Positions 1,504-16,573 of a DNA stretch of 20,572 nt are shown here, piece by piece. Below the pieces are notes generated by a model that was given only the letters and a program-made list of their open reading frames with translations, had not been told where the DNA came from and did no database searches. The first letter of the stretch is position 1. Each line of letters starts with the position of its first letter. A program made the position numbers and the translations under genes. Source of the stretch: a virus. The DNA is taken from IMG/VR virus record IMGVR_UViG_3300044833_000184, positions 1 through 20,572 of that record, one strand, 5' to 3'.

Positions 1504-1512
1504 GATAGTCGA
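1504..1512 (+). promoter_or_regulatory. GATAGTCGM start-site motif, integrase copy (GATAGTCGA)
   Basis: First of nine copies, with the first base 13 nt before the GTG at 1517. GATAGT matches the bacterial -10 consensus at positions 2, 3, 4 and 6, and is placed for transcription to begin at or near the start codon. The last base is A here and C in the other eight copies. Confidence 0.6.
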
Positions 1513-1516
1513 GCTC

Positions 1517-2092
1517 GTGCCCGGCCGCAAGCTCCCGATGACGCTCACGAGCGATGAGATCACGGCGCTCATGGGACGCCCGAACCTGGACGCCCCGACC
1601 GGCCTGCGCAACCGATGCATGCTCGAGCTCATGTATCGGTGCGGGCTTCGTAACTCGGAAGGCTGCGGGATTCATCTGCGCGACGTCGACTGGAAAGCGG
1701 CCGAGCTCCGCATCCGCCCCGAGGTCGCGAAGGGCGGGCGCGAAGCGGTGCTCCCGCTCGAGGCCTCGGCGCTCGAGCTGCTCGAGCGCTGGAAGCCGGT
1801 GCGCCGGCGCTACGCCAACGGCAACGCGAGCCTTTTCGTCACCCTCACCGGCGGCCCCGTCGACCGCCATTACGTGTGGGAGATGACGAGCCGGTACGGC
1901 CGGCGCGCGGGAATCGACCGGCCGATCTGGCCGCACATGCTCCGCCACACCTTCGGGACCGAGCTCCTGCGCGAAGGGTTCGACCTGCGCGAGGTGCAGA
2001 CGCTCATGCGCCACGCCGACATCCGAACCACCGTCCTCTACACGCACCTCGTCGACGTCGAGCTCGCGGCGAAGGTCAGGGCCCGGCGATGA
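1517..2092 (+). CDS. int: Tyrosine recombinase/integrase, catalytic domain only
   Basis: The product would integrate or excise the phage, or resolve its DNA. All hallmark residues are visible when numbered from GTG 1517: Arg45 in CGLRNSE, Lys72 in AKGGRE, His140 and Arg143 in PHMLRHTFGTELL, His166 in LMRHADIRTT, and the nucleophile Tyr175 in LYTHL. The frame is open further upstream, but that extension overlaps the HTH gene in another frame and is not protein-like. The start motif at 1504 points to GTG 1517, giving 191 aa. Phage integrases usually have 300-400 residues with arm-binding and core-binding N-terminal domains, and both are absent here. The stop overlaps the terS start (ATGA). Function as a complete integrase is therefore uncertain; assignment to the superfamily is secure. 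Confidence 0.88.
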   Translation: MPGRKLPMTLTSDEITALMGRPNLDAPTGLRNRCMLELMYRCGLRNSEGCGIHLRDVDWKAAELRIRPEVAKGGREAVLPLEASALELLERWKPVRRRYANGNASLFVTLTGGPVDRHYVWEMTSRYGRRAGIDRPIWPHMLRHTFGTELLREGFDLREVQTLMRHADIRTTVLYTHLVDVELAAKVRARR

Positions 2093-2715
2093 CGCCCAAA
2101 AAGCCTGTCCAGAAACCTGTCCATAAATCTGTCCAAATGGCCACCAAAATGGCCACCAAAAAGCGCCGGCGGTGTGCGGGCAAGACGAAGTCCGGCAAGC
2201 GGTGCAAGGCGTGGGCGCTCATGGGCACGGCGCGGTGCGCCGCGCATCCGACAGGTCCGACACCTAAAAACGCGCGCGCGACGCTGTTCCTCGCCGCGTT
2301 CGCCGAGTCGCACCTGGTCTCGGAGGCGGCGAAGCGCGCGGGGATCCACCGCGACACGGCGTACGCGTGGCGCAAGGCCGATCCCGAGTTCGCGGCCGAG
2401 TGGGCGGAGATCGAGGAGGCCTCGACCGAGCGCCTCGAGCAGGAGGCCCTGCGGCGCGCCGTCGACGGCTGGGTGGAGCGTCCCGTCTTCGACAAGGAGG
2501 GAGAGCAGGTGGGCGAGGTGCGGAAGTTCTCGGACACGCTGCTCATCTTCATGCTCAAGGCGCGCCGGCCGGACACGTATCGCGAGCGCTATCAGCATGA
2601 GCACACGGGCCCTGACGGCGGTCCGATCGCCGCGGAGATAGTCGCGGTCGATGCCCGCGAAGTCGCCGACGCGACCCACGATTTCCTCCGGCGCCTCGCC
2701 GGGCCTGAGTACTGA
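2089..2715 (+). CDS. terS: Terminase small subunit with N-terminal zinc motif
   Basis: The ATG at 2089 overlaps the integrase stop (ATGA). The 208-aa product would recognise phage DNA and recruit TerL for packaging. Residues 1-25 are a Lys/Val/Thr repeat region encoded by short tandem repeats. Cys29, Cys39, Cys50 and His53 (CAGKTKSGKRC, then CAAH) form a small zinc-binding motif common at the N-terminus of phage DNA-binding proteins. Residues ~66-110 are a TerS-type HTH (FLAAFAESHLVSEAAKRAGI, then HRDTAYAWRKADPEF), followed by a long acidic helix and FSDTLLIFMLKARRPDTYRERY, a segment typical of small-terminase homologues. The 3' end overlaps terL by 65 nt. Assignment by pattern and by position before terL is strong. 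Confidence 0.85.
   Translation: MTPKKPVQKPVHKSVQMATKMATKKRRRCAGKTKSGKRCKAWALMGTARCAAHPTGPTPKNARATLFLAAFAESHLVSEAAKRAGIHRDTAYAWRKADPEFAAEWAEIEEASTERLEQEALRRAVDGWVERPVFDKEGEQVGEVRKFSDTLLIFMLKARRPDTYRERYQHEHTGPDGGPIAAEIVAVDAREVADATHDFLRRLAGPEY
2098..2163 (+). repeat. Short tandem repeats in the 5' end of terS
   Basis: Three imperfect ~12-nt units ending in CTGTCC are followed by two near-identical units, AATGGCCACCAA. They encode KPVQKPVHKSVQ and MATKMATKK. This stretch is clearly poorer in GC than its surroundings. It may be replication slippage or a cis site at the start of terS. Confidence 0.6.
2637..2645 (+). promoter_or_regulatory. GATAGTCGC start-site motif, terL copy
   Basis: Begins 14 nt before the ATG at 2651 and lies within the terS coding region, where the codons encode EIVAV. 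It therefore gives terL its own initiation signal despite the overlap with terS. Confidence 0.6.
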
Positions 2716-4165
2716 CGTCGCCCGCCGGATGGCGCGCGGGTCGCCGGCAGGCCTCGCATATGTCGCTTCGGGGGGACGGTGGACGCCGGCGCGCCATCTC
2801 GTGGCGATCGCCGACCGGTTGTGCGCGATCGAGCGCGGCGAGATCGACCGGCTGATGATCTTCCAGCCGCCGCGCTCGGGGAAGAGCATGCTCACCTCGG
2901 AGTTCACGCCGTCCTGGTATCTCGGCCTTCACCCGGACCGGCGGGTCATCCTGTGCTCCTACGGTGCGCATCTCGCGTCGAACTGGGGGCGCAAGTCGCG
3001 TGACGTGCTCGAGGCGTACGGGCCCGCGTACTTCGATGTCGCCGTGGCCAGGACGTCGAAGGCGGCCGATCACTGGAACCTCGAGGGTCAGCCGGGAGGA
3101 ATGAACACCGCGGGCGTCGGCGGGCCGATCACCGGGTTCGGCGCCGATCTCCTCATCATCGACGATCCGCTCAAAGACGCGGAGGAGGCAGGCTCGGAGG
3201 TGATCCGCGCCAAGCAGATCGACTGGTGGCAGGCAGTCGCCCGCACGAGGCTGATGGCCGGCGGGGCGGTGGTGCTGATGCAGACCCGCTGGCATGAGCA
3301 GGACCTCGCCGGGTGGCTGCTCGAGGACATGCGCCACGGCGGCGATCAGTGGGAGGTGCTCTCGCTTCCCGCGATCGCGGAGGAGACCGATCAGCTCGGG
3401 CGCTCAGAAGGTGAGGCTTTGTGGCCATCGAAGTTCCCGCTGGCAGACCTCGAGCGCACCAAGCGCGCGCTCGGCGGCTACTACTGGGCCGCGCTCTACC
3501 AGCAGCGTCCGGTGCCCGCGGGCGGGGCGATCTTCAAGCGCCACGATTTTCGCTACTTCACCGAGGATCCCGAGAACGACCTGTACTGGATGCGCGGCGC
3601 CCAAGGCGAGGAGGACAAGCCGGTCGGGCGCTCCTACTGCTACCAGTTCGTCACCTGCGACCCCGCCTTCTCAGAGAAGGAGACGGCCGACTACACCGCG
3701 CTCGGGCTGTGGGCTGTCACCCCGTGGATGGACCTGCTCCTCTTGGACGTGGCGCGGATCCGCTTCGACGTCGAGAACCTACCCGCCGCCATTCACCGCT
3801 ACTTCGAGCTGTGGTCACCGTCGGACATTCGCATCGAGAGCAAGGCGTATGGGACCAGGGTGATCAACGCGCTCGTGCAACAAGGGTTGCCGATCATCCC
3901 GCTCGAGGCCGACACCGACAAAGTCACCCGCGCCCTCAGTGCTGTTCCCCGCTATGAGTGCCATGCCGTCTTTCACCGTCAGGGCGGCGAGTACGTCGAT
4001 GACTACGAGCGAGAGATGCTCGCATTCCCGAACGGGGCTTACGACGATCAGGTCGACATGTACGCCTACGCCGCGCTCGCACTCCCTGACCTGCAGTTGG
4101 TAGCCGTCAAGCAAGAGTCGATGGGTGAGACACAGACGGGTGGGCTGATGGACCAGCAGCTCTAG
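2651..4165 (+). CDS. terL: Terminase large subunit (packaging ATPase-nuclease)
   Basis: This is the motor that pumps DNA into the prohead and cuts it. In the 504-aa product the ATPase shows Walker A PPRSGKS (73-79), Walker B LLIIDD (167-172), and the coupling segment QTRWHEQDLAGWL around 211-223. The RNase-H-like nuclease shows CDPAFS (Asp337), IESKAYG (Glu396) and AYDDQVD (Asp465/466). Length and domain order are normal. ATG 2651 is chosen because GATAGTCGC lies 14 nt upstream; an internal ATG at 2729 would also keep all motifs. It overlaps the end of terS by 65 nt and is followed after 51 nt by the JAMM gene. Confidence 0.95.
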   Translation: MPAKSPTRPTISSGASPGLSTDVARRMARGSPAGLAYVASGGRWTPARHLVAIADRLCAIERGEIDRLMIFQPPRSGKSMLTSEFTPSWYLGLHPDRRVILCSYGAHLASNWGRKSRDVLEAYGPAYFDVAVARTSKAADHWNLEGQPGGMNTAGVGGPITGFGADLLIIDDPLKDAEEAGSEVIRAKQIDWWQAVARTRLMAGGAVVLMQTRWHEQDLAGWLLEDMRHGGDQWEVLSLPAIAEETDQLGRSEGEALWPSKFPLADLERTKRALGGYYWAALYQQRPVPAGGAIFKRHDFRYFTEDPENDLYWMRGAQGEEDKPVGRSYCYQFVTCDPAFSEKETADYTALGLWAVTPWMDLLLLDVARIRFDVENLPAAIHRYFELWSPSDIRIESKAYGTRVINALVQQGLPIIPLEADTDKVTRALSAVPRYECHAVFHRQGGEYVDDYEREMLAFPNGAYDDQVDMYAYAALALPDLQLVAVKQESMGETQTGGLMDQQL

Positions 4166-4216
4166 GGAAGGAGGGGCGAGCGGGAGGTTGGCGGGCCGAC
4201 TGGGGGTGACGGCAGA

Positions 4217-4651
4217 ATGAGGCTTGTGGATGGTGACTGCGCAGTGACCGCCGCGTCGGTGGTGATCGACTTGCTTGTGGCTCACGCGCTCGAGGAAGCA
4301 CCGAACGAGTGCTGCGGGCTGATCGGTTTGTTCGACGGCGCGCTCCACTTCCCCCTGCGCGCGACCAACTGCGCGCCGCTGCCCGAGCTTGCCTATGAGA
4401 TCGAGGGTAGGGAGCAGTGGGAACTCGAGAACGCGCTCGCGCTCTACGGCCTCGAGGTCGGCGCCATCTACCACTCCCACACTCGGGCCGACGCGCGCCC
4501 GTCGACCAGCGACGTCGAACTCGCGCGCTATCCGGAGCTGCTCTACGTGATCGTGGGCGTGCGCGACCCCCACGCGCCTGAGGTTCGCGTGTTCCGGGTT
4601 GTCGAGAGGGGCATGGAAGAAGTGAACCTGGACATTCGCCTGCCGGGATAG
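4217..4651 (+). CDS. JAMM/MPN (Mov34/PAD-1) family metalloprotease
   Basis: This 144-aa protein has the zinc isopeptidase signature: Glu31 in NECCGLIG, then His86-Ser-His88 followed by Ser96 and Asp99 in YHSHTRADARPSTSD. All predicted zinc ligands and the catalytic Glu are present, so it should be active. Family members cleave ubiquitin-like conjugates or precursors, and in phage lambda a JAMM domain forms part of tail protein K. Here it stands alone between terminase and portal, with no NlpC/P60 domain. A GGGGGTGA 8 nt upstream serves as the Shine-Dalgarno. The stop TAG is embedded in the GATAGTCGC motif of the next gene. The substrate is unknown; virion protein processing or removal of host-attached ubiquitin-like tags are both possible. 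Confidence 0.82.
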   Translation: MRLVDGDCAVTAASVVIDLLVAHALEEAPNECCGLIGLFDGALHFPLRATNCAPLPELAYEIEGREQWELENALALYGLEVGAIYHSHTRADARPSTSDVELARYPELLYVIVGVRDPHAPEVRVFRVVERGMEEVNLDIRLPG

Positions 4652-4655
4652 TCGC
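4647..4655 (+). promoter_or_regulatory. GATAGTCGC start-site motif, 82-aa gene copy
   Basis: Starts 16 nt before ATG 4663, the longest spacing of the set. Its TAG at 4649-4651 is the stop codon of the JAMM gene. Confidence 0.58.
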
Positions 4656-4662
4656 ACTGGCG

Positions 4663-4911
4663 ATGGGGCACACGAAGTTCAAGCGCGACAAGGGCCTCGA
4701 TCACGGCAAGCCGGGCGCCGCGCTCGAGCACGCCACGGACGGTCACACGTCGCTCGTTGTCGGCCATCACGTCCTCGCAGACGGAATCAAGAAGGCGACG
4801 GGGAAGGCGGTCGAGCTGCAGATCGGCGGCCTCGCGAAGCTCGAGATTCGCGACGGGCAATGGAAGCTCGCGCAGCTCCTCGGCCCCGCCGACATCGCGA
4901 AGCTCGCATGA
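4663..4911 (+). CDS. Hypothetical protein (82 aa)
   Basis: The start is supported by the upstream motif. The N-terminal ~27 residues are Lys/His/Gly-rich and polar. The rest looks like a small alternating strand/helix domain: TSLVVGHHVLADGIKKATG, then VELQIGGLAKLEIRDGQW, then a closing helix. No family is recognised. It follows the JAMM gene and its stop overlaps the start of the zinc-finger gene (ATGA), so those two are probably co-translated. A virion or head-assembly role is suggested only by position. Confidence 0.65.
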   Translation: MGHTKFKRDKGLDHGKPGAALEHATDGHTSLVVGHHVLADGIKKATGKAVELQIGGLAKLEIRDGQWKLAQLLGPADIAKLA

Positions 4912-5087
4912 GCCGCCGCCGCTGCCTCGAGTGCGACCGCCCGCTCCTCCCTAACGAGCAGGGGGCGTTGTGCAACGGCTGCTACTTCGAGGCGATCACC
5001 ACTCCCGAGCCTGCGGATTCGCCACGCCCTCTATTCCGTCCAGCGTCATCTTCTCGAGATATGCCCGGTAGACCGGCGCCCCGTTGA
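4908..5087 (+). CDS. Small zinc-finger protein (59 aa)
   Basis: The ATG overlaps the previous stop (ATGA). Two Cys pairs, CLEC near residue 7 and CNGC near residue 22, form a compact zinc-ribbon-like knuckle. Everything after about residue 30 is Pro/Ser/Arg-rich and lies antisense to a leftward gene (4996-5175), so the conserved part is probably only the first ~28 residues. Function is unknown; such knuckles serve as nucleic acid or protein adaptors in phage genomes. Confidence 0.6.
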   Translation: MSRRRCLECDRPLLPNEQGALCNGCYFEAITTPEPADSPRPLFRPASSSRDMPGRPAPR

Positions 5088-5175
5088 CCAACTCGATCGC
5101 TTTGCAGGCGGCCTCAAGTGCCTCGCGGTGAAGCTGCTCGTTATCGCCGTGGGCCGCGATCACTAGGCGGTACAT
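4996..5175 (-). CDS. Hypothetical leftward protein (59 aa)
   Basis: The minus-strand ATG at 5173-5175 has an ideal Shine-Dalgarno, GGAGGA, 4-5 nt ahead. The product looks like a real folded protein: MYRLVIAAHGDNEQLHREAL (a strand then a helix), EAACKAIELVNG (helix), and PVYRAYLEKMTLDGIEGV. It is opposite in direction to all late genes around it and overlaps the last 92 nt of the zinc-finger gene tail to tail. No family is recognised. The strong ribosome site and protein-like composition argue against it being a shadow of the + strand frame, whose tail is low in complexity here. Confidence 0.6.
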   Translation of the reverse strand: MYRLVIAAHGDNEQLHREALEAACKAIELVNGAPVYRAYLEKMTLDGIEGVANPQAREW

Positions 5176-5242
5176 CGCTCTCCTCCAGGTAGCGGACCAC
5201 GCCAGCCCCACCCCCCTTCCCTGCCGCCGTTTCAGCCGGGGA
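5176..5242. promoter_or_regulatory. Divergent spacer before the portal gene
   Basis: This gap holds the ribosome site of the leftward gene (minus strand, 5181-5186) and leads into the portal start motif. It includes a C-rich run around 5208-5220. No hairpin terminator or clear -35 box is seen. Confidence 0.3.
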
Positions 5243-5251
5243 GATAGTCGC
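5243..5251 (+). promoter_or_regulatory. GATAGTCGC start-site motif, portal copy
   Basis: Begins 13 nt before the GTG at 5256 and lies in non-coding DNA, so its conservation here cannot be due to a protein sequence. Confidence 0.62.
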
Positions 5252-5255
5252 CCTC

Positions 5256-7070
5256 GTGGCGATCCGCGACCTCTTCACCAAGCGCCCGAAGGCTGACGAT
5301 CAGCCGATCTCAGACTCCGGTCGCGCGCACGTCTCAGGCTTCCTGCAGCTCGAGGAGATCAACGCGACATTGCAGGGCCCGGGCGGCCTGGCGATCTATG
5401 ACCAGATGTGGTGGACGGACCCTGACGTTCACCGCGCCGGAAGGATGATCGTCAACACCGTCACGGCCGCCGCGTGGTCGGTCGAGCCGTTCGGCGGCGA
5501 CGAAGCGTCAGCGCACGATCAGGAGGTCGCGGACAACCTCGAGTGGGCGCTCGGCCTCGGCTCCCAAGGCGCCACCAGCCCGCTCAGACCGCGCTGGCAG
5601 GGCCATCTCGCCCAGGCGGTCCCGGCCACCGTCCGCTTCGGCTTCTGCCCATTTGAGATCACCTGGGCGTCGGCGGCCCGCAACGGCAAGACCCTGCTGA
5701 CCCCGTCACGGCTCGGGCTGCGCCTGCCCCGCACCATCTACCGCTGGCTGCTCGACGAGAACCACGAGCTGCAGGCCATCGAGCAGTTCCTCCCCCTGCG
5801 CGGCTACATGGTCCTTCCCCGCGCGAACCTCCTCTACTACCGGATCGGCACCGAGGGCGACAACTATGAGGGCCGCTCGATGCTGCGCCCCTGCTACAAG
5901 CCGTGGCTGTTCAAGGACAAGGTCGAGCGCCTCGACGTCATCGCCCAGGAGCGCGAAGCGGTCGGCCTCCCCGTCGTCTTCCCCCCGCGCGCGGGCGTCA
6001 CCTCGCCGGCCGTCCTCGCCGATCTCGAGGTCAAGCTCCAGAACCTCCGCGCCGGCGAGCTGGCCTACATGATCATGCCCGGCCCCGAAGCGACGACGGT
6101 GAAGGATCAGGGCGGGTGGACGTTCCGCATCGAGGGCCTCGCGGGCACCAAGGGCGGCCGTGACCCATCGAAGACGCTCGAGTACCACAAGGACGGGATC
6201 GCCGCGGCGTTCATCGAGGAGTTCATGCGCCTCGGCCAGTCGGGCGTCGGAGCGAGAGCGACCGCTGACGTGCAAGAGGGGCCGTTCAACATGGCCGCCG
6301 AGGCGCTCGGGCACATCTTCGAGGATGAGGCGAACGAAATGCTCATCCCCCGCTGGGTGGAGCTCAACTACGGTGCCGACTGTCCGCTGCCGACGCTGTC
6401 GATGTCGATGGCGGAGGAGCCGCTCGAGGACCTCCGCGACTACTGCTCGGTGCTCATAGCGGCAGGCGCCCTGCAGCCCGACGGCCCGCTCGAGGACTTC
6501 CTGCGCGAGCGCGCCGACCTGCCGCCCGCCGATCCGCTCGTCCGCGACCAGGTGCAAGCCCAGCAGGAAGCGGCACGCAAAGCCGCGACCGACGTCTCCA
6601 ACGACCCCGCATCGCATCAGGTCACGCCGACCGAGCCGTCCGTCGGCCCGGCACCGCTGCTCGGTAAGCGCCGCGATCAGCCCTCCATCGCCCCGGCCTC
6701 CCAGCAGGCCGCGCGAGGCGTCGAGCGCGCCGCACGCCTGCTCTCGGCGATCCGCGACGGCGACGTCGCCGAGCAGCTGCGCATCCTCGACACCCCGAAC
6801 CGCTCGAGCGGCGTCTCGGGCGACGGGACATGGCCGACGACCTCAGGGAAGGCGGGCGTCGACGGCGTCCCCACCCCCGACTCCTGGCACTGCCCGTGTG
6901 GTGGAGAGCACTGCTCGTGCGACTCGCCGGTGTCGTGCACGTTCGTCCCGACCGTCGACATGTCCTACTCGATCGACATGAACCCGAAACGGAGGCGGCG
7001 TAACGCGGGAGACGGGACGCAGGCGAACGCGCCCGATGCTGTCGATCCGCCTGGCGGAAGGACGCTGTGA
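5256..7070 (+). CDS. Portal protein, DUF935/Mu gp29-like, with Cys-rich C-terminal extension
   Basis: The dodecameric portal is the DNA entry channel at the capsid vertex. The N-terminal two thirds match the DUF935 pattern: a motif with YDQMWWTDPDVHRAGRMIVN, an AAWSVEPFGG strand, then VRFGFCPFEITW, then NLLYYRIGTEGDNYEGRSML with a following CYKPWLFK, and a GLPVVFPP segment. The start is GTG 5256, fixed by the motif. Beyond about residue 450 the 604-aa chain is Pro/Ala/Gln-rich and probably disordered. It then carries an unusual cluster, WHCPCGGEHCSCDSPVSC (Cys546, 548, 553, 555, 561), and a basic RRRR tail. The Cys cluster is not a standard part of portals and may bind metal. The zinc-ribbon and head-morphogenesis genes follow. 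Confidence 0.88.
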   Translation: MAIRDLFTKRPKADDQPISDSGRAHVSGFLQLEEINATLQGPGGLAIYDQMWWTDPDVHRAGRMIVNTVTAAAWSVEPFGGDEASAHDQEVADNLEWALGLGSQGATSPLRPRWQGHLAQAVPATVRFGFCPFEITWASAARNGKTLLTPSRLGLRLPRTIYRWLLDENHELQAIEQFLPLRGYMVLPRANLLYYRIGTEGDNYEGRSMLRPCYKPWLFKDKVERLDVIAQEREAVGLPVVFPPRAGVTSPAVLADLEVKLQNLRAGELAYMIMPGPEATTVKDQGGWTFRIEGLAGTKGGRDPSKTLEYHKDGIAAAFIEEFMRLGQSGVGARATADVQEGPFNMAAEALGHIFEDEANEMLIPRWVELNYGADCPLPTLSMSMAEEPLEDLRDYCSVLIAAGALQPDGPLEDFLRERADLPPADPLVRDQVQAQQEAARKAATDVSNDPASHQVTPTEPSVGPAPLLGKRRDQPSIAPASQQAARGVERAARLLSAIRDGDVAEQLRILDTPNRSSGVSGDGTWPTTSGKAGVDGVPTPDSWHCPCGGEHCSCDSPVSCTFVPTVDMSYSIDMNPKRRRRNAGDGTQANAPDAVDPPGGRTL

Positions 7071-7075
7071 TTCCT

Positions 7076-7096
7076 GAATCCATGAATCCATGGATT
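7076..7096. repeat. Direct repeat and 12-bp palindrome ahead of the zinc-ribbon gene
   Basis: GAATCCAT occurs twice in tandem (7076-7083, 7084-7091), and the second copy forms the perfect palindrome AATCCATGGATT (7085-7096). The gap is strikingly A/T-rich for this genome. It may be an operator or an RNA processing or folding site between the portal and the next gene. No T-run follows, so a terminator is unlikely. Confidence 0.5.
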
Positions 7097-7111
7097 GCTA
7101 GGTGAATGCAA

Positions 7112-7324
7112 ATGCATAACGACGCTGGGAAGGGGGAGGCGGCGCAGTCCGACGCTGGGGCTCGGTTCGAGGCGTGCAGCCTTGAGCGCCTGAAGCGGGC
7201 TTACAGCCATCTGATCACGCGCCGCTGTCCGCTCTGCGATGAGTATTCGCTGTGCGTAAACCCCGACTACCCTCGGCAGCCTCGGCTCCGCTGCTATGTC
7301 TGCGACGTTCGCCTCCCGTGGTGA
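7112..7324 (+). CDS. Small zinc-ribbon protein (70 aa)
   Basis: Cys39-Pro-Leu-Cys42 and Cys61-Tyr-Val-Cys64 form a classic zinc ribbon, with an extra Cys48. The N-terminal 20 residues are polar, followed by a helix, LERLKRAYSHLI. I prefer ATG 7112 to ATG 7106 because AGGTG (7100-7104) is then at proper Shine-Dalgarno distance. The stop overlaps the next ATG by one base (TGATG), so translation is coupled to the head-morphogenesis gene. Function is unknown. Confidence 0.65.
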   Translation: MHNDAGKGEAAQSDAGARFEACSLERLKRAYSHLITRRCPLCDEYSLCVNPDYPRQPRLRCYVCDVRLPW

Positions 7325-8289
7325 TGCAGAACCGCCCGCTCCGTCCCTTTGAGCAGGGCGCCCACCTTCATGTCCTCGACTGGGCGCACACCACCGCCCG
7401 GGTGCGCTTCCAGGCTGCCGGGGCCGCCCAGGTCAAAGCGGCCGCCAAGGCGTTCGTGGACACCCCCGCCGACGCGGCTCTGCACGTCGCCCATCCCCCT
7501 TCCCTGCCCGCCTTGGAGGCAGCGATCAACCAGGAGCTACGAAAGCTTTACGCCCTCGGGCACGCCACGGTCCGCTCAGAGATCGACCATCAGCTGAACG
7601 GCCGCCAGCTCCCCATCGGCCTGAGCGCCGCACCGGAGCCGCCGAACCTCCGCAAGGCGAAAACCAAGAAGGGCCGCTTCGATCACTGCGCGACATGCAA
7701 GATGTACGACGCCTCCTCCCACTCCTGCTGGGGGTATGGAAACTGGCCGGTCAAGCCGAACCAGCTGTGCGACAGCTTCGAGCGTGACCCGAAGCCGAAA
7801 ACGCTCGCGCTCGATGACGCCCGGCGGGATCCGGGACGCCTCCGAGCCCGCGCCCGCTTGGTGGCTCAGGCGACGGCGCACGCGATCTGGCAGGCCATCC
7901 AGCGCGCCCGCTTACAAGGCATAAGCGACCCGAAGCGCCTGCGCCAGCTCGGCCGTGACGCGGGCACGACCGCGCTCGGCCAGGCCGCCACCCACCATGC
8001 GGGCGGCGCGATCAACGGAGGCCGCCATGCTGCCGCCCTGACCGTGCTTCCCGGCGGGAAGGGCCAGCCTGAGATCGTCGGCGCCCGCTACACCTCGGTC
8101 CTCGACAAGAACACGTGCGGGCCGTGCGCCGACGCCGACACGGGGCAGCTCATCCCCGTCGGCTCCCCCGAGTGGATCCCCACGCCGAACCCGGCGTGCA
8201 TGGGCGGAGATCGCTGCCGGTGCATACACGTCTACCAGCTCTCCACCGAGGTGGGCTCTGAGGCCCTGCCCATCGCGGCGGGGGGATAG
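7324..8289 (+). CDS. Head morphogenesis protein, SPP1 gp7/Mu gpF-like, with two Cys clusters
   Basis: Minor head proteins of this family attach near the portal and help procapsid assembly or DNA ejection. The 321-aa product ends with the family hallmark RYTSVLDKNTCGPCADADTG, then MGGDRCRCIHVY (Cys265, 268, 292, 298, 300). A central insert, Cys122-x2-Cys125 with Cys135 and Cys149 (HCATCKMYD, SCWGYGNWPV, LCDSFERD), looks like a separate metal-binding knuckle. A helix-rich segment between residues 165 and 235 links them. ATG 7324 is chosen over the in-frame upstream ATG at 7252 because it overlaps the preceding stop and avoids running across the zinc-ribbon gene. The stop TAG lies in the next GATAGTCGC motif. 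Confidence 0.8.
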   Translation: MQNRPLRPFEQGAHLHVLDWAHTTARVRFQAAGAAQVKAAAKAFVDTPADAALHVAHPPSLPALEAAINQELRKLYALGHATVRSEIDHQLNGRQLPIGLSAAPEPPNLRKAKTKKGRFDHCATCKMYDASSHSCWGYGNWPVKPNQLCDSFERDPKPKTLALDDARRDPGRLRARARLVAQATAHAIWQAIQRARLQGISDPKRLRQLGRDAGTTALGQAATHHAGGAINGGRHAAALTVLPGGKGQPEIVGARYTSVLDKNTCGPCADADTGQLIPVGSPEWIPTPNPACMGGDRCRCIHVYQLSTEVGSEALPIAAGG

Positions 8290-8293
8290 TCGC
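8285..8293 (+). promoter_or_regulatory. GATAGTCGC start-site motif, 99-aa virion gene copy
   Basis: Begins 13 nt before GTG 8298. As at 4647, its TAG (8287-8289) serves as the stop codon of the preceding gene. Confidence 0.6.
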
Positions 8294-8297
8294 GGCC

Positions 8298-8597
8298 GTG
8301 AGCTTCTCCGTTCATCACGGCGGATCGCCGACCGCCGCGATCGCCACCACCATCGTGTGCGCCGCCGCGACGAGCATCGTCCTCGCGCCGCCCAATCCGC
8401 TACGCGAGGCGTTCTCACTGTTCAACGGCAGCTCCTCCGCGCTCTATGTCGCCTATGGGGTGGCCGCCCAGCCGTCCCAGGGATTTCCGGTGCCGGCGCT
8501 CTCGGGCATGTATGAGCCCGACTACATCGGCACTGTCGCCGTCTGCGTGCCCACGGGCGCTTCTGGCGCGCCCGCGTTCTTCGTTGAGGTGGGCTGA
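8298..8597 (+). CDS. Small virion-type protein (99 aa)
   Basis: The start is GTG, fixed by the motif. The protein is rich in short beta strands: TSIVLAPPNPLREAFSLFNG, then SSSALYVAYGVAAQP, then a C-terminal IGTVAVCVPTGASGAPAFFV. The pattern of a residue run ending LFN-x-S, then ALYV, then a G-x-W/V strand resembles small phage proteins of the Pam3 gp28 type, which sit beside fibre genes. The stop overlaps the next ATG (TGATG-like junction at 8595-8599). It is probably a structural accessory to the fibre, inferred from pattern and context. Confidence 0.6.
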   Translation: MSFSVHHGGSPTAAIATTIVCAAATSIVLAPPNPLREAFSLFNGSSSALYVAYGVAAQPSQGFPVPALSGMYEPDYIGTVAVCVPTGASGAPAFFVEVG

Positions 8598-10711: not shown

Positions 10712-11742
10712 TGGCGGGTACCCCGTTCAGCCCTCGGTCGATCTGGCGCACCGCGCTCGCGGACAGCGCCCCAATCGTCGGAGCGGGCAGCCTCGCATCG
10801 GCGCTCGCCGCGCAATGCCGCGCGACGACAACCTCCTCGCCGCTATCCGGTCCGTGGGTCGCTCCGTTCAACACGGGCACCAATCAGAGTGCTTTCAGCG
10901 TGCCGGTGTGGGTCGTCGGAGGAGGCGTCACCACTCAGAAAGTAACGCTCGTCGGCGCTTCCGCTCCGTCCCTTCAGGCGGCATGGAATGCCGTCCCGCT
11001 CCCGCCAGGACAGGCGCAGTTGGAGGCAAGCGGCAGCGACAAGGATTGCGTGGTCTGGCGTCCCTCAACTGATGAGTTGTGGGAGTTCTACGGGTTCATC
11101 GACCTCAACACCAGCATCGTTCCCAACGGTCCCTCGGCGACGTGGGGCGGCTACATCCCGCACGTCAGTCGCCACCCCGGCTACTTCAAGGCGACCCCAG
11201 AGACCGACAACGTGTCCTGGGGGATTCGTGCTGCCGGGTTCTCCGCCCTCGGGGGACTCATTCGCCTGGACGAGCTGGCAGCGGGCGTGATCCCGCACGC
11301 GCTGGTATGCAGCCTCGCCCTGACCGGCGGGACTGTCTCACCCGCGCAGCGAAGCGACACGTACACCAACCTCAGCGGCAGCCCATCCGTCCTTGCCGCC
11401 AATCGAATCCCGGAGGGAAGCCTGTTTCGGTTCCCGCCGGGAGCCACGCCCGGTGGGCTGAGCGTCCCCGCCCAGATCCTCTACGCCGCGATCCGCGACT
11501 ACGGTCTCTACGTCGGGGACAGCAGCGGCGACATGACGCTGTACATCGAGGATCTGAGACCGCTGTCGACCGGCTACACGGACAGCGCGACGCTCACCAA
11601 CCCGTCGACGACGCCCGGGCCGGCTGACGTGCAGAGCCTGCCGTGGGAGAGCGTTCAACAGGTGCAGTGGGCCAGTCCGGTTCCGGCTGGCAAGAAGCTC
11701 TGCCACTACCAGGGGTCCGTCGCGCTCATCAGCGCCTACTGA
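10711..11742 (+). CDS. Tailspike/receptor-binding-like protein related to actinobacterial secreted proteins
   Basis: The 343-aa protein starts at an ATG sharing a base with the fibre stop (TGATG). It follows a layout I recognise from secreted proteins of actinobacteria: an N-terminal segment with PFSPRSIW and LADSAPI, then a central DCVVWRPSTDELWEFYGF, WGGYIPHV, SWGIRAAGFSALGGLIRLDE and GVIPHALVCSL, then RIPEGSLFRFPP, and near the end ILYAAIRDYGLYVGDSSG. No signal peptide is present here, unlike the cellular relatives, which fits a virion protein. Position after the fibre suggests a surface-binding or surface-degrading spike. No catalytic residues can be assigned. The family recognition is from memory of the pattern, so moderately sure. 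Confidence 0.65.
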   Translation: MAGTPFSPRSIWRTALADSAPIVGAGSLASALAAQCRATTTSSPLSGPWVAPFNTGTNQSAFSVPVWVVGGGVTTQKVTLVGASAPSLQAAWNAVPLPPGQAQLEASGSDKDCVVWRPSTDELWEFYGFIDLNTSIVPNGPSATWGGYIPHVSRHPGYFKATPETDNVSWGIRAAGFSALGGLIRLDELAAGVIPHALVCSLALTGGTVSPAQRSDTYTNLSGSPSVLAANRIPEGSLFRFPPGATPGGLSVPAQILYAAIRDYGLYVGDSSGDMTLYIEDLRPLSTGYTDSATLTNPSTTPGPADVQSLPWESVQQVQWASPVPAGKKLCHYQGSVALISAY

Positions 11743-11774
11743 CCTTCCGCTTTTGGCGATAACCGCCAGCCGAA

Positions 11775-11783
11775 GATAGTCGC
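11775..11783 (+). promoter_or_regulatory. GATAGTCGC start-site motif, membrane-gene copy
   Basis: Begins 14 nt before ATG 11789, in the 46-nt non-coding gap after the tailspike gene. A weak hairpin, TGGCG-ATAAC-CGCCA, sits just upstream (11754-11768). Confidence 0.62.
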
Positions 11784-11788
11784 CCGCG

Positions 11789-12088
11789 ATGCTCTTCTAC
11801 GCGATCCTCGGCGGCGGCTTTCTCGAGAACGCGCACGGTCACTTCGATCCGGTCAGCTACTTCTTCGGGGCCGGGGTGGCGACGAACATCGGGGCGGCAG
11901 CGATCGGTCTGCTGCTCGGCTACCTGTGGGGGCGCGCGAAGCTTCGCGGCTTGCACGCCAAGCTCGACGAGCACGCCGACATGCACGCCGCGCACGCCAC
12001 CAAGCTCGACCGACTGGAGAGGCGGCTCAGCGGTTCGCCCGCCGGGCCCGCCACGCCCTCTGGCCCTGGCGCATGGCGAGCGCCATGA
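11789..12088 (+). CDS. Single-pass membrane protein (99 aa), holin-like candidate
   Basis: A hydrophobic segment at about residues 24-47 (YFFGAGVATNIGAAAIGLLLGYLW) is followed by basic residues and a charged amphipathic helix (LHAKLDEHADMH, ATKLDRLERRL), then a Pro/Gly-rich tail. Small size, one membrane span and a charged cytoplasmic-type helix are compatible with a holin or another phage membrane protein, but no endolysin is nearby and no holin family is recognised. The last ~62 nt overlap a leftward membrane peptide gene. It has its own start motif and is probably transcribed alone. Confidence 0.6.
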   Translation: MLFYAILGGGFLENAHGHFDPVSYFFGAGVATNIGAAAIGLLLGYLWGRAKLRGLHAKLDEHADMHAAHATKLDRLERRLSGSPAGPATPSGPGAWRAP

Positions 12089-12173
12089 GCGACGCCGTGA
12101 GCACACACAGCCAGTAGAAGAGCGCTCCGATCGCCCAGAGCGTGACCGCGAAGATCGCGACCCACCACGGCAT
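12027..12173 (-). CDS. Small leftward membrane peptide (48 aa)
   Basis: Reading leftward from ATG 12173: MPWWVAIFAVTLWAIGALFY, then WLCVLTASLMALAM, then a strongly basic tail (RQGQRAWRARRANR). This makes one or two membrane helices followed by an Arg-rich cytoplasmic end. No Shine-Dalgarno is evident at this ATG; an upstream in-frame GTG at 12215 would link it to the homing endonuclease, which stops at 12220. It converges on the + strand membrane gene and overlaps its tail. It could be real, or the mirror of a biased sequence; the long Trp/Phe-rich run makes me favour a gene. Confidence 0.45.
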   Translation of the reverse strand: MPWWVAIFAVTLWAIGALFYWLCVLTASLMALAMRQGQRAWRARRANR

Positions 12174-12219
12174 GGAGACGCCGAAGTGGGGGGCGACACG
12201 GAAGTAAGCGCGCACAGCG

Positions 12220-12747
12220 TCAAAGTAGGGACAGCTGCGGCGGTGGGGGCTCGATCTCCTCAAGCGGCGCGTCATAAGCGCGCACGGCGCGAAGCTCGCG
12301 ATACAGGCGCGCCATCGTGGTCCAGTCACGCGGATATGAGCCGCCGCCGCCCGGCACGCTTCTCCCGACGCGGCTAATGCCGCACCAGACGCCGACCGCT
12401 TCGCGCCAAATCGCGTAGTCGCGAGCCTTCTTCGAGTGCAGCGGGTAGGCGTCGAAAATGCTCACGAGCGCGCGACAGCCTGCCTTGGATTGAACTTGCC
12501 AGGCGCTCTGGGGCTTGGCGTCGCCCTTCGAGTTGTACGGCGGGTGGTTGCAGATACGTCCGAGTCCGCTCTGCTGGGCAATCCAATCGAGCGTGGGCCG
12601 GTCGTCGGCGCGCAGGTTCAGGCGCACCATGCAGTGGTAGTACCAGCGCCCATTCCAACTCCCCCGGCCGATCGCGAAGCAGCCCTCGCCATCGAAGAAC
12701 CCGGCGAGCCAATGGCCGAAGGCCGGGTCGATATCTTGCGGGTGCAT
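12220..12747 (-). CDS. Free-standing LAGLIDADG homing endonuclease
   Basis: The 175-aa product carries HWLAGFFDGEGCFAIGRGSW (residues 12-31), an unmistakable LAGLIDADG helix with the catalytic acidic residue (Asp19/Glu21). It is followed by the strand pattern YHCMVRLNLRADDRPTLDWI and a typical PPYNSKGDAKPQSAWQVQSK region. Only one LAGLIDADG motif is seen, so it would act as a homodimer that cuts a long DNA target and promotes spread of its own gene. ATG 12747 has a GGAG 6 nt upstream on the minus strand. It is leftward in a rightward region and not inside an intron or intein, so it is an inserted selfish gene between the membrane gene and the protease gene. Confidence 0.88.
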   Translation of the reverse strand: MHPQDIDPAFGHWLAGFFDGEGCFAIGRGSWNGRWYYHCMVRLNLRADDRPTLDWIAQQSGLGRICNHPPYNSKGDAKPQSAWQVQSKAGCRALVSIFDAYPLHSKKARDYAIWREAVGVWCGISRVGRSVPGGGGSYPRDWTTMARLYRELRAVRAYDAPLEEIEPPPPQLSLL

Positions 12748-12833
12748 CAGGGCTCCGTTTCCTGGTGTCGGGCCCCGGCCGTTGACGCGGTGCGGGGCCA
12801 CTTTGTGAGCACTTAATTTTACTCGCGGGCGGG
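12748..12833. promoter_or_regulatory. Spacer between homing endonuclease and protease genes
   Basis: This divergent spacer holds the ribosome site of the endonuclease (minus strand) and an A/T-rich patch at 12811-12822. On the minus strand that patch reads TAAAAT, a possible -10 box for the endonuclease. The protease start motif begins immediately after, at 12834. Confidence 0.35.
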
Positions 12834-12842
12834 GATAGTCGC
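12834..12842 (+). promoter_or_regulatory. GATAGTCGC start-site motif, protease copy
   Basis: Begins 14 nt before ATG 12848, in non-coding sequence. Confidence 0.62.
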
Positions 12843-12847
12843 AGGCA

Positions 12848-14110
12848 ATGGACCTCGTTACCCTTGCCGACCTTCCCGACCTCTCGGGCACTGATCCGGC
12901 GCCTACCGTCGAGATCGCGATAGGGCGTCTCGACAGCAAGTTGACTGACCCGCGGTACGGTTCCTTCGCCATCACACAGGCCGACGTCGATGGATGGAAA
13001 CGCAACCTCTCGGAGACCTTCGGCGGCCGCGTAGCGATGGACGCCGACCACTCCTCAGACCGCGGCCGGGGCACGCGGGCGGCTGCTTGGATCACCGACA
13101 TCTCGCAGGCTGGGACCAAGAACGGCAGCCTGATCAACGCCAAGGTCGAGTTCACGAAATGGGGCGCTGATCTCGTGCGAGGCAAGGAATACCTCTACAC
13201 GAGCCCGACCTTCGTCGCCAACTACACCGACGAGCACGGGGGCAAGCACGGGCCGGCGCTGATCGGGGCGGCCCTCACTAACCGACCCGTCCTCCGCAAG
13301 GGCATGCCGACGCTCTCCCTCTCCCAGGATGCCTTTGACGGTGTCGCGGTCCCGGGCCCGGATGGCGGCTCTGAGGCGAAGCGTGAGCGTAAGCGCGCCC
13401 GCAAGCAGCTCGCCCGCCTGCTCTCCGCCAACACCGCGGCCCCGCGCGATAGTCGCGCCCAGATGGACCTCTCAGAACTCGCCAAGCTCCTGGACCTTCC
13501 CGCCGACGCCGATCAGGTCACGATCCTCGCGAAGGTCGCCGCGATCAAGCCGCCTGAGCCCGGCAAGGCGAAGGAGCCCGAGACCGTCACCCTCGACGCT
13601 GCCGCCCAGAAGAAGGCCGAGAAGAAGGCGGCCAAGAAGGCCCGCAAGCTTGCCCAGCAGAACGCCGACGGCACGATGGCGCTCTCCGCCGACGGGTACG
13701 CCGACCTGCTCTCCAAGGCGAACGCCGGCCAGGCCGCCGCGCTGCAGCTCTCAGAGCAGACCTTCGATCACGCCTGGCAGAAGGCGCTCGACCAAGGGCG
13801 CGCCGCCCCTTCCCAGGAGGATCAGATGCGCGCCCTGTTCCGCGAGAACCAGGACATGGCGATCAAGACCCTCGACTCCTTCGTGCAGATCGTTCCCGTC
13901 CGCCCGTCCGGCTCCGGTGAGGGCGCCGCGAATGGTGGCCCGACTCCCGCCGGCATGGACGATGACCGGTTCGCCCTTCACACCGAGGCCAAGCAGCTCG
14001 CCAAGCAGCTCGCCAAGGACAACCCCGCGATGTCGCCGGACGAGGTCTATACGATGGCGGCGATCGAGATCGACGACCGCCGCAACGGCACCTCGGACGG
14101 AGAGTTCTAA
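12848..14110 (+). CDS. Prohead protease with C-terminal scaffold (Mu I-like)
   Basis: The 420-aa product would mature the prohead. Its N-terminal ~165 residues follow the Mu I protein (phage protease) pattern: FGGRVAMDADHSSD (60-71), AAAWITDI (78-85), GKEYLYTSPTF (112-122) and IGAALTNRPVLRKGMPTL (139-156). After a basic linker the chain becomes Ala/Lys/Glu-rich and helical (AAQKKAEKKAAKKARKLAQQ near residue 260), as expected for a scaffold. It contains an internal start at residue 206 (see 13463). The 3' end shares one base with the next gene (TAATG). The protease assignment rests on the motif order and on its place two genes before the capsid gene. Confidence 0.85.
   Translation: MDLVTLADLPDLSGTDPAPTVEIAIGRLDSKLTDPRYGSFAITQADVDGWKRNLSETFGGRVAMDADHSSDRGRGTRAAAWITDISQAGTKNGSLINAKVEFTKWGADLVRGKEYLYTSPTFVANYTDEHGGKHGPALIGAALTNRPVLRKGMPTLSLSQDAFDGVAVPGPDGGSEAKRERKRARKQLARLLSANTAAPRDSRAQMDLSELAKLLDLPADADQVTILAKVAAIKPPEPGKAKEPETVTLDAAAQKKAEKKAAKKARKLAQQNADGTMALSADGYADLLSKANAGQAAALQLSEQTFDHAWQKALDQGRAAPSQEDQMRALFRENQDMAIKTLDSFVQIVPVRPSGSGEGAANGGPTPAGMDDDRFALHTEAKQLAKQLAKDNPAMSPDEVYTMAAIEIDDRRNGTSDGEF
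13448..13456 (+). promoter_or_regulatory. GATAGTCGC start-site motif, internal copy in the protease gene
   Basis: Begins 15 nt before an in-frame internal ATG at 13463. As coding DNA it reads RDSR, a non-conserved linker, so the exact nonamer is not needed by the protein. Confidence 0.62.
13463..14110 (+). CDS. Nested scaffold protein from an internal start
   Basis: This 215-aa product is the C-terminal half of the protease gene, in the same frame, beginning MDLSELAKLLDLPADADQV. It contains the Lys/Ala/Glu coiled-coil stretch and the acidic C-terminus (AKQLAKQLAKDNPAMSPDEV), the expected composition of a procapsid scaffold. In lambda (C/Nu3) and Mu (I/Z) the scaffold is likewise made from an internal in-frame start of the protease gene, so this organisation is well precedented. 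Here the start is marked by the same nonamer that marks eight other genes. It would lead an operon with the cement and capsid genes. Confidence 0.75.
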   Translation: MDLSELAKLLDLPADADQVTILAKVAAIKPPEPGKAKEPETVTLDAAAQKKAEKKAAKKARKLAQQNADGTMALSADGYADLLSKANAGQAAALQLSEQTFDHAWQKALDQGRAAPSQEDQMRALFRENQDMAIKTLDSFVQIVPVRPSGSGEGAANGGPTPAGMDDDRFALHTEAKQLAKQLAKDNPAMSPDEVYTMAAIEIDDRRNGTSDGEF

Positions 14111-14544
14111 TGGCCGGCGAGCGGATCAAGTGGGATGGCGCGATCCCGATGATCGCCGCCTCGGCGATCAACGACCGCCAGGCAGTGCAGCTGACCGCCT
14201 CCGCGCTTGAGCGCCAGGTCCTCCCGATCGCGACCGTCAACGTCGAGCCCTACGGGATCGCGATGGCGTCCGCCGGCGCGGCGGGTGCGTCCACCAATCC
14301 ACAGCTCACTCCCGCCTGCCCCGTCATCGACGACGGGAATATCGTCAAGGTCACCGCCGCAGCCTCGCTCGGCGTCGGCGCGGACATTGTCGTCGGCTCG
14401 ACGAACGGAGGGTTCGCGCCCGCGAGCGCCGGCGCGAGCGGCATCCTCATGTGGCGCGTCGGAAAGTCCCTGTCGGCGGCCAACGCCGGCGAAGTCTTCA
14501 GCCTGCACGTCAAACCCCGCCAGATCTCAGGAGCGCAGACATGA
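14110..14544 (+). CDS. Capsid cement/decoration protein (DUF2190-like)
   Basis: The 144-aa protein is coupled to the scaffold stop (TAATG). It is Ala/Gly/Val-rich with alternating beta strands: AINDRQAVQLTASALERQVL, GIAMASAGAAG, VIDDGNIVKVTAAASLGVG, and the closing MWRVGKSLSAANAGEVFSL. This is the pattern of small proteins that decorate and stabilise the capsid shell and lie just before the major capsid gene. Its stop overlaps the capsid start (ATGA). Confidence 0.72.
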   Translation: MAGERIKWDGAIPMIAASAINDRQAVQLTASALERQVLPIATVNVEPYGIAMASAGAAGASTNPQLTPACPVIDDGNIVKVTAAASLGVGADIVVGSTNGGFAPASAGASGILMWRVGKSLSAANAGEVFSLHVKPRQISGAQT

Positions 14545-15650
14545 GCCGGCGCCTTGACCCGCGCATCCTCGCGGACGTGCTCCAGCTGGCGGCGCTCGAG
14601 CGTCCCGGCTGGGATCAGCGCATCAGGACGCTGTCGGGCCCGGTGAACGTCGGTCCGTTCGGCGGCCAGGACGCCCGCGACCTGCAGATCATCGACCCGG
14701 TGCTCACGCAGATCGCCCGCCAGTACCGCCCGCACGGCTACATCTACAACGACGTGTGCCCCACGATCAACGTCCAGACGCTCTCGGGACAGTATCCCGT
14801 CTTCGACAAGGCGTACTGGTTCTCGAACGATGTCGATAACCGTATGACGGACCGCGAGGGCGTCATGGAGATCGACTTCAAATGGTCGACGGAGAGCTAC
14901 CTGTGCCTCGACTATGGCGAAGCGATCTCGATCACCCCGCGCGAGCGCCAGCAGGCCAACTCGGCCCTGCGCCTTGAGCAGTCAAAGACCCAGTATCTGA
15001 TGACTCGGATGGCCCAGGCCCGCGAGGTTCGCCTCGCCGCCAAGCTGAAGGTGATCGCCGCCGGTACCCCCGGTGGGCTCACCACCTCAGTTCCGGCGAC
15101 CACCGCGTTTGCGACCTCCACCGCTGTCGAGGCGGACTGGAAGACGTGCAAGATGGCGGTCTACAACCTCATCGGGATCACCCCGAACGTCGCGATCATC
15201 CCCTACGCCAAGGCATACGATCTCGCCACAAACGTAACTCTTCGCGACATCTGGAAGTACTTCGTCAACAACGACTCGTACATCCGCCTGGGCGCCGACC
15301 AGGACGGCGAGGATATCTTCCTGCCGCGCTGGTTCCACGGCACGCGCCTCGTGGTCCCCAAGGGCACGCTCGTCAACACGGCCCGTGAGGGTGCCGCCGT
15401 GTCGCTCGCGGACGCTTGGGGCACCTCGGTCCGCTTCCTGTACGTCGATCCGCAGGCCGCATGGGGCATTCCCTCCACCTGCTACCAGTTCCAGGCCCCC
15501 GTCGTGACCGGCCAGGGCACCGCGGGCTCGGGGCCGCTGATCGACCGCTGGCGTCAGCCAAACCCGGTGAAGGACATGATCCGCGCCGTCGAATGCATCG
15601 ACGAACGCGTCGTCGCACCCGACACCGGCGTTGAACTAACCGGGGTCTGA
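14541..15650 (+). CDS. Major capsid protein
   Basis: The 369-aa product should be the shell subunit. It follows scaffold and cement genes and has suitable size and composition. Landmarks include an N-terminal VNVGPFGGQDARDLQ, an E-loop-like region YPVFDKAYWFSNDVDNRMTD, a spine-helix-like LRLEQSKTQYLMTRMAQARE (around residues 140-165), a domain with PNVAIIPYAKAYDLATNVTL, and a C-terminal WGIPSTCYQFQAPVV. The start ATG 14541 overlaps the previous stop and has CAGGAG 7 nt upstream. The HK97 fold is inferred from the family, not visible directly. Confidence 0.83.
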   Translation: MSRRLDPRILADVLQLAALERPGWDQRIRTLSGPVNVGPFGGQDARDLQIIDPVLTQIARQYRPHGYIYNDVCPTINVQTLSGQYPVFDKAYWFSNDVDNRMTDREGVMEIDFKWSTESYLCLDYGEAISITPRERQQANSALRLEQSKTQYLMTRMAQAREVRLAAKLKVIAAGTPGGLTTSVPATTAFATSTAVEADWKTCKMAVYNLIGITPNVAIIPYAKAYDLATNVTLRDIWKYFVNNDSYIRLGADQDGEDIFLPRWFHGTRLVVPKGTLVNTAREGAAVSLADAWGTSVRFLYVDPQAAWGIPSTCYQFQAPVVTGQGTAGSGPLIDRWRQPNPVKDMIRAVECIDERVVAPDTGVELTGV

Positions 15651-15655
15651 ACACC

Positions 15656-15841
15656 GTGGCGTATCGCGCCCTGCACCTCGTCTCGCGCGGCCTGCTGCCG
15701 CCCGTCCCGATCGGCGAGGAGATCCCCGACTTCTACGTCGACTCGCTCGGCTCCAAGCAGCCCGTCGACTACGACCGCCTCGTGGAGCTCGGCGCCGCCG
15801 AAGAGGTCAAAACCCCCGCGAAGACTCAGGGCAAGGGGTAG
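15656..15841 (+). CDS. Small protein downstream of capsid (61 aa)
   Basis: GTG 15656 is 6 nt after the capsid stop. The chain starts MAYRALHLVSRGLLPPVPIG and contains FYVDSLGSKQPVDYDRLVEL, ending in a Lys-rich tail. Short proteins at this place often join head and tail or attach to the capsid, but no family is recognised. Confidence 0.55.
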   Translation: MAYRALHLVSRGLLPPVPIGEEIPDFYVDSLGSKQPVDYDRLVELGAAEEVKTPAKTQGKG

Positions 15842-15851
15842 CGATGCTCTC

Positions 15852-16079
15852 ATGGGCTCGCTCCTCGTCCCCCGCAAGCCGCCCGACCCGAGGGACTCGG
15901 CGCCCGTAGGGGCGTACCTGACCCGCTGCGACCTGACCGCCAGGCCCTGCCTCGTCGAAGTGCTCCAGTCCGACTATGCCGGCGTGGAATGCGCCGACTG
16001 CGTCACGGGCTTCGTGGTCGAGATCGAGCGGGTTGACCTGGCGCAGGGGTGGCGGAGGGTCAGATCGCCTGAACCTTGA
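15852..16079 (+). CDS. Hypothetical protein with Cys residues (75 aa)
   Basis: ATG 15852 is preferred to ATG 15844, whose frame stops after 21 codons. The chain has four Cys (CDLTARPC, CADC) that might bind a metal, then a hydrophobic strand, GFVVEIERVDL, and a basic end. No family is recognised. It lies between the capsid gene and the LuxR-type gene. Confidence 0.5.
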   Translation: MGSLLVPRKPPDPRDSAPVGAYLTRCDLTARPCLVEVLQSDYAGVECADCVTGFVVEIERVDLAQGWRRVRSPEP

Positions 16080-16086
16080 GAGAAGA

Positions 16087-16554
16087 GTGTCAGCCGCGCG
16101 AACTAAGGTCCCTGCGGGCTGCCCGCTCACCCGCCGCCAGTTCGAGGTCCTCTCCCTTCTCGCCGCCGGGCAGGCGGACGCGCAGATCGCCGCGAGCCTT
16201 CACATCTCGGGGATCGGCACCCATCTCTATAACGCTGCTCGCAAGCTCGGCGTGGTAGGCCGCACGCAGGCGCTCGGCGTCATGTACGCCGCAGGCTGGC
16301 TTGATCCCGTCGCGACGGAGTTCGGCGATGAGCGCTCGTCGCCGGCGCAGAGCCTCTACCTGCGGTCCTTCGAGAAGCTCCTCGCCTTGCGCCACACCGA
16401 CTCGGCGGCACTGTACTTCGCCGCCACCCGCGAGATGACCCATCACTTGCGCGGCATGTACTACGAGGTCGAGAAGCTGCCGCCATGGGAGGTGCTGGGC
16501 GCGCCGCGCCCGCCTGCGCACCGATCACTGCGCAGGGGCCTGGGCCGTTTCTGA
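16087..16554 (+). CDS. LuxR/FixJ-type HTH protein (155 aa)
   Basis: Residues ~14-65 form a LuxR-type HTH: LTRRQFEVLSLLAAGQADAQ, then IAASLHISGIGTHLYNAARK, then LGVVGRTQAL. No receiver or sensor domain is present. The C-terminal half is helical (SFEKLLALRHTDSAALYFAA, then a REMTHHLRGMYYEVEKL helix). GTG 16087 follows a GAGAGAAG purine run just after the previous stop. Its place at the end of the capsid operon suggests a phage regulator, perhaps of late or lysogeny genes. The target is unknown, and the site of start could be a little further upstream. Confidence 0.65.
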   Translation: MSAARTKVPAGCPLTRRQFEVLSLLAAGQADAQIAASLHISGIGTHLYNAARKLGVVGRTQALGVMYAAGWLDPVATEFGDERSSPAQSLYLRSFEKLLALRHTDSAALYFAATREMTHHLRGMYYEVEKLPPWEVLGAPRPPAHRSLRRGLGRF

Positions 16555-16564
16555 AACTCGGCGC

Positions 16565-16573
16565 GATAGTCGC
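16565..16573 (+). promoter_or_regulatory. GATAGTCGC start-site motif, XRE-gene copy
   Basis: Begins 14 nt before ATG 16579, in the short gap after the LuxR-type gene. It is the rightmost copy; no further copy is seen in the 4 kb to the end of the window. Confidence 0.62.

Follow-up and report, generated by a model that had tools for sequence, protein, structure and literature searches.

We analysed a complete virus record from IMG/VR, IMGVR_UViG_3300044833_000184, whose 20,572 bp are referred to below as the window. Its genes include integrase-family, terminase, Mu-type portal, Mu-like protease and capsid genes as well as a gene for a protein resembling region 2 of sigma-70 factors, and its + strand carries nine copies of a short motif, the 8-mer GATAGTCG. 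In every case, an ATG or GTG lies 13-16 nt further on and opens a reading frame of 77-604 codons (Table 1). A preliminary description, made from the sequence of the window, had taken this repeat for the mark of a leaderless-promoter regulon that might be served by a dedicated sigma factor. All nine nonamer copies that it listed are found at their coordinates, the motif is followed by C in eight of them and by A in the copy at 1504, and the distances to the start codon (13, 14, 16, 13, 13, 14, 14, 15 and 14 nt) are correct. When both strands are counted, the 8-mer occurs 10 times against an expected mean of 0.33, the largest count in 100 shuffled sequences being 3, which rules out a chance origin of the copies. 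The single copy on the - strand (221-228) has no start codon behind it. In two of the + strand copies, the TAG within GATAGT is also the stop codon of the preceding open reading frame (ORF), and the copy at 2637 falls within the end of the upstream ORF 2137-2715.

Table 1. Positions of the putative promoter element and of associated features in the window.
Feature	Position	Strand	Start codon or remark
Putative late-promoter element GATAGTCGA	1504..1512	+	GTG of small tyrosine recombinase at 1517
Putative late-promoter element GATAGTCGC	2637..2645	+	ATG of terminase large subunit at 2651
Putative late-promoter element GATAGTCGC	4647..4655	+	ATG at 4663 (82-aa protein); TAG also ends ORF 4217-4651
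Putative late-promoter element GATAGTCGC	5243..5251	+	GTG of Mu-type portal protein at 5256
Putative late-promoter element GATAGTCGC	8285..8293	+	GTG at 8298 (99-aa protein); TAG also ends ORF 7324-8289
Putative late-promoter element GATAGTCGC	11775..11783	+	ATG of 99-aa protein at 11789
Putative late-promoter element GATAGTCGC	12834..12842	+	ATG of Mu-like head maturation protease at 12848
Putative late-promoter element in protease gene	13448..13456	+	In-frame ATG 13463 of presumed scaffold protein, 215 aa
Putative late-promoter element GATAGTCGC	16565..16573	+	ATG of small helix-turn-helix (HTH) protein at 16579
Protein resembling sigma-70 region 2; candidate reader of the putative promoter	435..983	+	
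Region 4-like (HTH) part	940..1149	+	Other, overlapping frame; ATG near 913 a possible start
Second element TTCTGAAAC	16549..16557	+	Begins 16 nt upstream of the motif copy at 16565

Conservation and placement in a phage family

The nearest relative by terminase (L015, 74%) lies on contig G001, a contig of 49.9 kb with 19 motif copies, all of them on one strand, in which the conservation reaches GATAGTCGCCGGCG immediately before the ATG. Scanning for GATAGTCGCCGGCG yielded further large contigs with 10-18 copies each, nearly all on one strand. The window has its terminase, portal, protease, capsid and tail genes in common with G002, G003, G005 and G006. In all six related contigs, the top or near-top place among over-represented 8-mers is taken by GATAGTCG or by ATAGTCGC, the same word shifted by one base. 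The relatives are metagenomic contigs and possibly fragments. Across the six related IMG/VR contigs, GATAGTC followed by a start codon occurs 81 times on the coding strand and not once on the other (0.31 per kb), although searches for exact GATAGTC overstate how invariant the motif is. Outside the family, only 6 such sites were found in 854 kb (79 contigs with a more distant terminase).

We take these phages for members of a little-known, tailed, temperate-looking family. Among the named phages of INPHARED, there was no relative of the sigma-like or the capsid protein, and the best terminase reached 43%. Scans of viral contigs with 17-mers returned mostly single chance copies, and a terminase scan of genome contigs for the host returned distant relatives only. 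The sequence GATAGTCGCNGGCGATG was missing from 40 relatives of one Acidobacteria genome, and in eight further genomes or records GATAGTCG N3-9 ATG occurred only in scattered copies. As a separate observation, G001 contains many one-strand copies of ACTCGCAGCT/CTGGACTCGCAG, which are probably repetitive coding sequence.

The motif is tied closely to start codons and to particular genes. In the six contigs, an ATG or GTG lies 12-16 nt from GATAGTC in 79 of 87 copies, compared with 11% by chance, and the commonest offset from the first base of the motif is 14 nt (44/81; range 11-17). According to gene calls made with a simple script, a positive gap separates the upstream gene from all 62 motif genes but from only 116 of 267 other genes, which mostly overlap or abut. 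From the same calls, a Shine-Dalgarno core precedes 2 of 62 motif genes versus 101 of 271 other genes, and because the motif occupies the Shine-Dalgarno position, this lack partly follows from the motif itself. The start of the portal gene carries the motif in six of six contigs, as does the protease or scaffold gene; the motif also stands at the recombinase orthologues of G002 and G003 and at the matching gene start in L157. Because the part of G002 that lacks the motif encodes an exonuclease, a Sak4-like protein, SSB, a helicase and a full-length 434-aa integrase, the motif marks the late block, and the regulon of the preliminary description is better described as a phage late (structural) regulon. 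In the non-late parts of G001, G002 and G003, about half of the genes have a Shine-Dalgarno core. The proposal of a leaderless regulon with its own sigma factor thus gains support from the one-strand placement at orthologous late-gene starts, from the absence of the motif in the DNA-metabolism block and from the missing Shine-Dalgarno sequences; the sigma factor suggested there is further backed by the conserved region 2-like gene at 435-983, which the preliminary description had not singled out.

The absence of a consistent -35 box, also noted previously, is borne out by the 81 pooled sites from the six contigs, in which the information content more than 6 nt upstream is at background. A further sequence, TTCTGAA(AC), partly palindromic as GTTTCTGAAAC, was seen in the window (16549), G002, G003, G005 and L157, often at the same genes across contigs; 16 of 23 cases are located at most 30 nt before GATAGTC. 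Because it can stand anywhere between 11 and 27 nt from the motif, we rejected it as a -35 box.

It had been claimed that the genes carrying the motif are those that open a unit. This claim fails for the copy at 13448, which is located inside the protease gene (12848-14110) and before an in-frame ATG. A second motif copy in this arrangement is found within the protease gene of the window, G001, G005 and G006, and the N-terminus of the nested product resembles MDLSELAKLL in these four. In G002, G003 and L157, a protein with a like start begins behind a motif copy. A homologous scaffold start with the motif is therefore present in seven of seven contigs compared and is nested in frame in four. 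Phages commonly place the coding sequence of the scaffold within the 3′ portion of the gene for the protease; the nested start fits this habit, and the nested gene has a motif copy of its own.

Several neighbouring genes are recorded here in their own right. The gene at 4217-4651, whose own stop codon is the TAG within the next putative promoter element, encodes a JAB-domain protein. The late block includes a gene for a glycosyltransferase-like protein with TPR repeats (window 17342-18781), of which the relatives have several paralogues. The recombinase at the edge of the late block is a tyrosine recombinase of 191-192 aa that consists of the catalytic domain only (window 1517-2092; G002 2615-3193, reverse-complement coordinates), and the full-length 434-aa integrase of G002 (47156-48460, reverse-complement coordinates) is located in the motif-free part near tRNA-Ser genes. 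A tRNA search of the window found none, and an Rfam search of it found no family.

A sigma-like protein and its linkage to the element

The region 2-like protein of the window is kept in four other contigs of the six, and its resemblance to sigma-70 region 2 lies in EELLALGWVEFFELACKYKP followed by GRFSGHAAMF. We compared profile hidden Markov models of this family and of 30 sigma-70 region 2 sequences and obtained a score of 25.8 with eight family members and of 30.4 with eleven, values that 0 of 300 and 0 of 400 column shuffles reached, respectively, with the alignment in the expected register both times. An earlier profile comparison with only three sigma sequences had been unsuccessful. 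The part that resembles region 4 is an HTH for which Pfam gives a mixture of weak matches. A single ORF unites both parts in the L303 and L307 contigs, an arrangement that resembles small ECF-type sigma factors; in the window (435-1149) and in most relatives (L155, L157-L160), the two parts occupy different overlapping frames. No ordinary start codon was seen for the region 4-like part in G002, G003 and L157, and a programmed frameshift or reinitiation is possible. In G001 (10886, reverse-complement coordinates) and L154 (9926), a lone GATAGTC without a start codon is located approximately 60-70 nt upstream of the sigma-like gene, where it may serve autoregulation.

We retrieved L154, L156 and L157 by searching with the sigma-like protein alone, and all three were then found to carry the motif, which in L156 has the form GATAGTCA. 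A search with the capsid protein yielded L303/L304, with the motif and the sigma-like protein, and two more distant carriers. One of these, L307 (39% GC in the stretch examined), encodes a diverged sigma-like protein and has GGATAATC as its top 8-mer; five copies of GATAATC in the first L307 stretch stand 12-17 nt before starts, and in the whole contig (G059), GGATAATC occurs nine times on the late strand versus twice on the other. The other, G060, likewise with a diverged sigma-like protein, has GGATAGC 14-16 nt before the terminase, portal and protease starts (4 versus 0 copies on the two strands). Overall, the sigma-like protein was present in eleven contigs, and an element of the GATAGTC type stands at late-gene starts in all eleven, although the carriers are related phages, so that shared descent accounts for the linkage no less than independent association does. 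What is informative is that the motif word differs where the sigma-like protein differs. The GATAATC and GATAGC variants were sought after the protein had been seen, which makes them weaker evidence than the three contigs first fetched by protein.

Proposed mechanism and alternative explanations

Judging from the sequence comparisons, we consider it probable (roughly 0.7) that the motif is the -10-type core of a single-element late promoter that is used by a phage sigma-like factor together with the host RNA polymerase. The protein encoded at 435-983, together with the region 4-like ORF that overlaps its gene and ends at 1149, would associate with the host core RNA polymerase, and the DNA would melt at GATAGT. 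Because we apply the promoter geometry of phages T4 and phiEco32 here, transcription is predicted to begin at the start codon, that is, approximately 6 nt past the GATAGTCG 8-mer and on or just before the ATG or GTG (offset 13-15 from the first base). Late messages would then be leaderless or nearly so, with leaders of 0-3 nt, and would not need a Shine-Dalgarno sequence. The element would drive the head, tail and packaging units, presumably late in infection, and a separate message for the scaffold nested in the protease gene. We lean slightly towards a broader proposal, in which a new family of minimal phage sigma factors, mostly split or frameshifted between region 2-like and region 4-like parts, drives a leaderless late regulon that includes the nested scaffold message, and in which protein and promoter word changed together in at least three lineages (GATAGTC, GATAATC, GATAGC).

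A number of results weigh against this mechanism. The sigma likeness is remote: there was no significant sequence match in Pfam, PHROGs, NCBIfam or the PDB, the best E-value of Pfam Sigma70_r2 against the family members was 0.084, which is not significant, and no such match was present in PHROGs or NCBIfam. The AlphaFold2 models of the window protein and of its L157 homologue are of moderate confidence (pLDDT 66-70), and Foldseek searches with both models gave no match below E 0.9. In favour of the likeness, re-alignment of the Foldseek candidates gave Z values of 5-6, and sigma region 2 occupied most of the top rows for the model of the L157 homologue (Staphylococcus aureus SigB, Z 6.1; T4 gp55, 7d7c, Z 6.0; also sigma-28 and sigma-S region 2), but a Z near 6 is weak alone and close to the 5-6 that unrelated helical proteins reach. 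In the window, the frames of the region 2-like and region 4-like parts differ. Nor is the regulon purely structural, since the motif also stands before the small recombinase gene at 1517. Finally, G006 carries the motif and lacks a sigma-like gene in the 40.8 kb examined, the expected site, just upstream of the terminase genes, being a contig end.

Among the alternatives, a role in translation comes closest. The motif could be a Start-Associated Sequence (SAS) in the mRNA that brings the ribosome, or a factor of phage or host, to the start codon, and its position and orientation match the SAS of cluster K phages (PMC3203893). We consider this improbable, because GATAGTCGC has no evident complementarity to the 16S anti-Shine-Dalgarno, unlike the SAS with its GGAG, and because the motif-to-start spacing varies by 6 nt. 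Moreover, the element follows intergenic gaps or lies within a long ORF rather than at tightly coupled genes, and it tracks the sigma-like gene and changes with that gene. The latter observation also bears on the idea that GATAGT is the ordinary leaderless -10 box of the host, read by the housekeeping sigma factor and merely used by the phage, since the element differs among contigs with diverged sigma-like proteins. This idea draws on the A2 and T6 common to GATAGT and TATAAT and on leaderless genes described in several bacterial groups (PMC3160421, PMC4633059). It is rather unlikely, given a conservation over 7-8 nt that is tighter than that of a housekeeping -10 box and given that the non-late parts of the same phages, with Shine-Dalgarno cores at about half of the genes there in G001, G002 and G003, do not have the element.

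Repressor stoperators are repeated asymmetric sites in one orientation as well, and small HTH and LuxR-type proteins are encoded nearby; the motif copies could accordingly be genome-wide binding sites of a phage repressor or regulator. Operators, however, do not require the link to start codons seen here, and the element is not palindromic; we regard this explanation as very unlikely. With respect to a T7-type RNA polymerase, a PF00940 search of five contigs was empty, but the control matched nowhere either, and absence is thus not shown. If the promoter with a phage sigma-like factor is real, then sequence alone is enough to read how an uncultured phage family runs its late programme, with the promoter fixing the starts of both transcription and translation. 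The family would then also provide a compact natural set for studying how the residues of sigma region 2 read a -10 element and a case of a nested gene that is turned on by its own promoter.

Comparison with known systems

The middle and late promoters read by gp36, the sigma factor of phage phiEco32, consist of the single element tAATGTAtA with the transcription start 6-8 bp downstream (PMC8948821). The element described here is likewise short, single and conserved, lacks a -35 box and precedes late units, and the sigma-like factor is a candidate only. It differs in its sequence and in being fixed against the start codon, with predicted leaders of 0-3 nt, and the candidate protein has no sequence match to known sigma factors detectable in the searches that were run. 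T4 late promoters, TATAAATA, have an 8-mer at -13 to -6 and are served by gp55 with gp33 and gp45 (PMC1524935). Both systems combine an 8-bp element in the -13 to -6 geometry with many copies in the late region, and gp55 ranks with the best fold matches to the sigma-like protein. The present phages differ from T4 in being GC-rich and temperate-looking and in the near-leaderless placement of the element, and the dependence on gp33 and the sliding clamp is a T4 feature.

The SAS of cluster K mycobacteriophages, GGGATAGGAGCCC, is a 13-bp asymmetric repeat found before starts in 11-19 copies per genome and mostly in one orientation, for which its authors suggested a role in translation initiation (PMC3203893). 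Start-associated sequences are also present in cluster EF Microbacterium phages (PMC7302621), and most SAS are located outside the structural module (PMC12699233). The motif described here is, in contrast, located in the structural module and reads GATAGTCGC, where the SAS holds a Shine-Dalgarno-like GGAG, and the literature consulted ties no sigma-like gene to the SAS, for which no reader is known. Both are asymmetric repeats placed right before starts, mostly in one orientation and sometimes holding the upstream stop codon, and both contain the letters GGATAG. If the proposed promoter is confirmed, it would offer a transcriptional model to be tried on the unexplained start-associated sequences of other phages.

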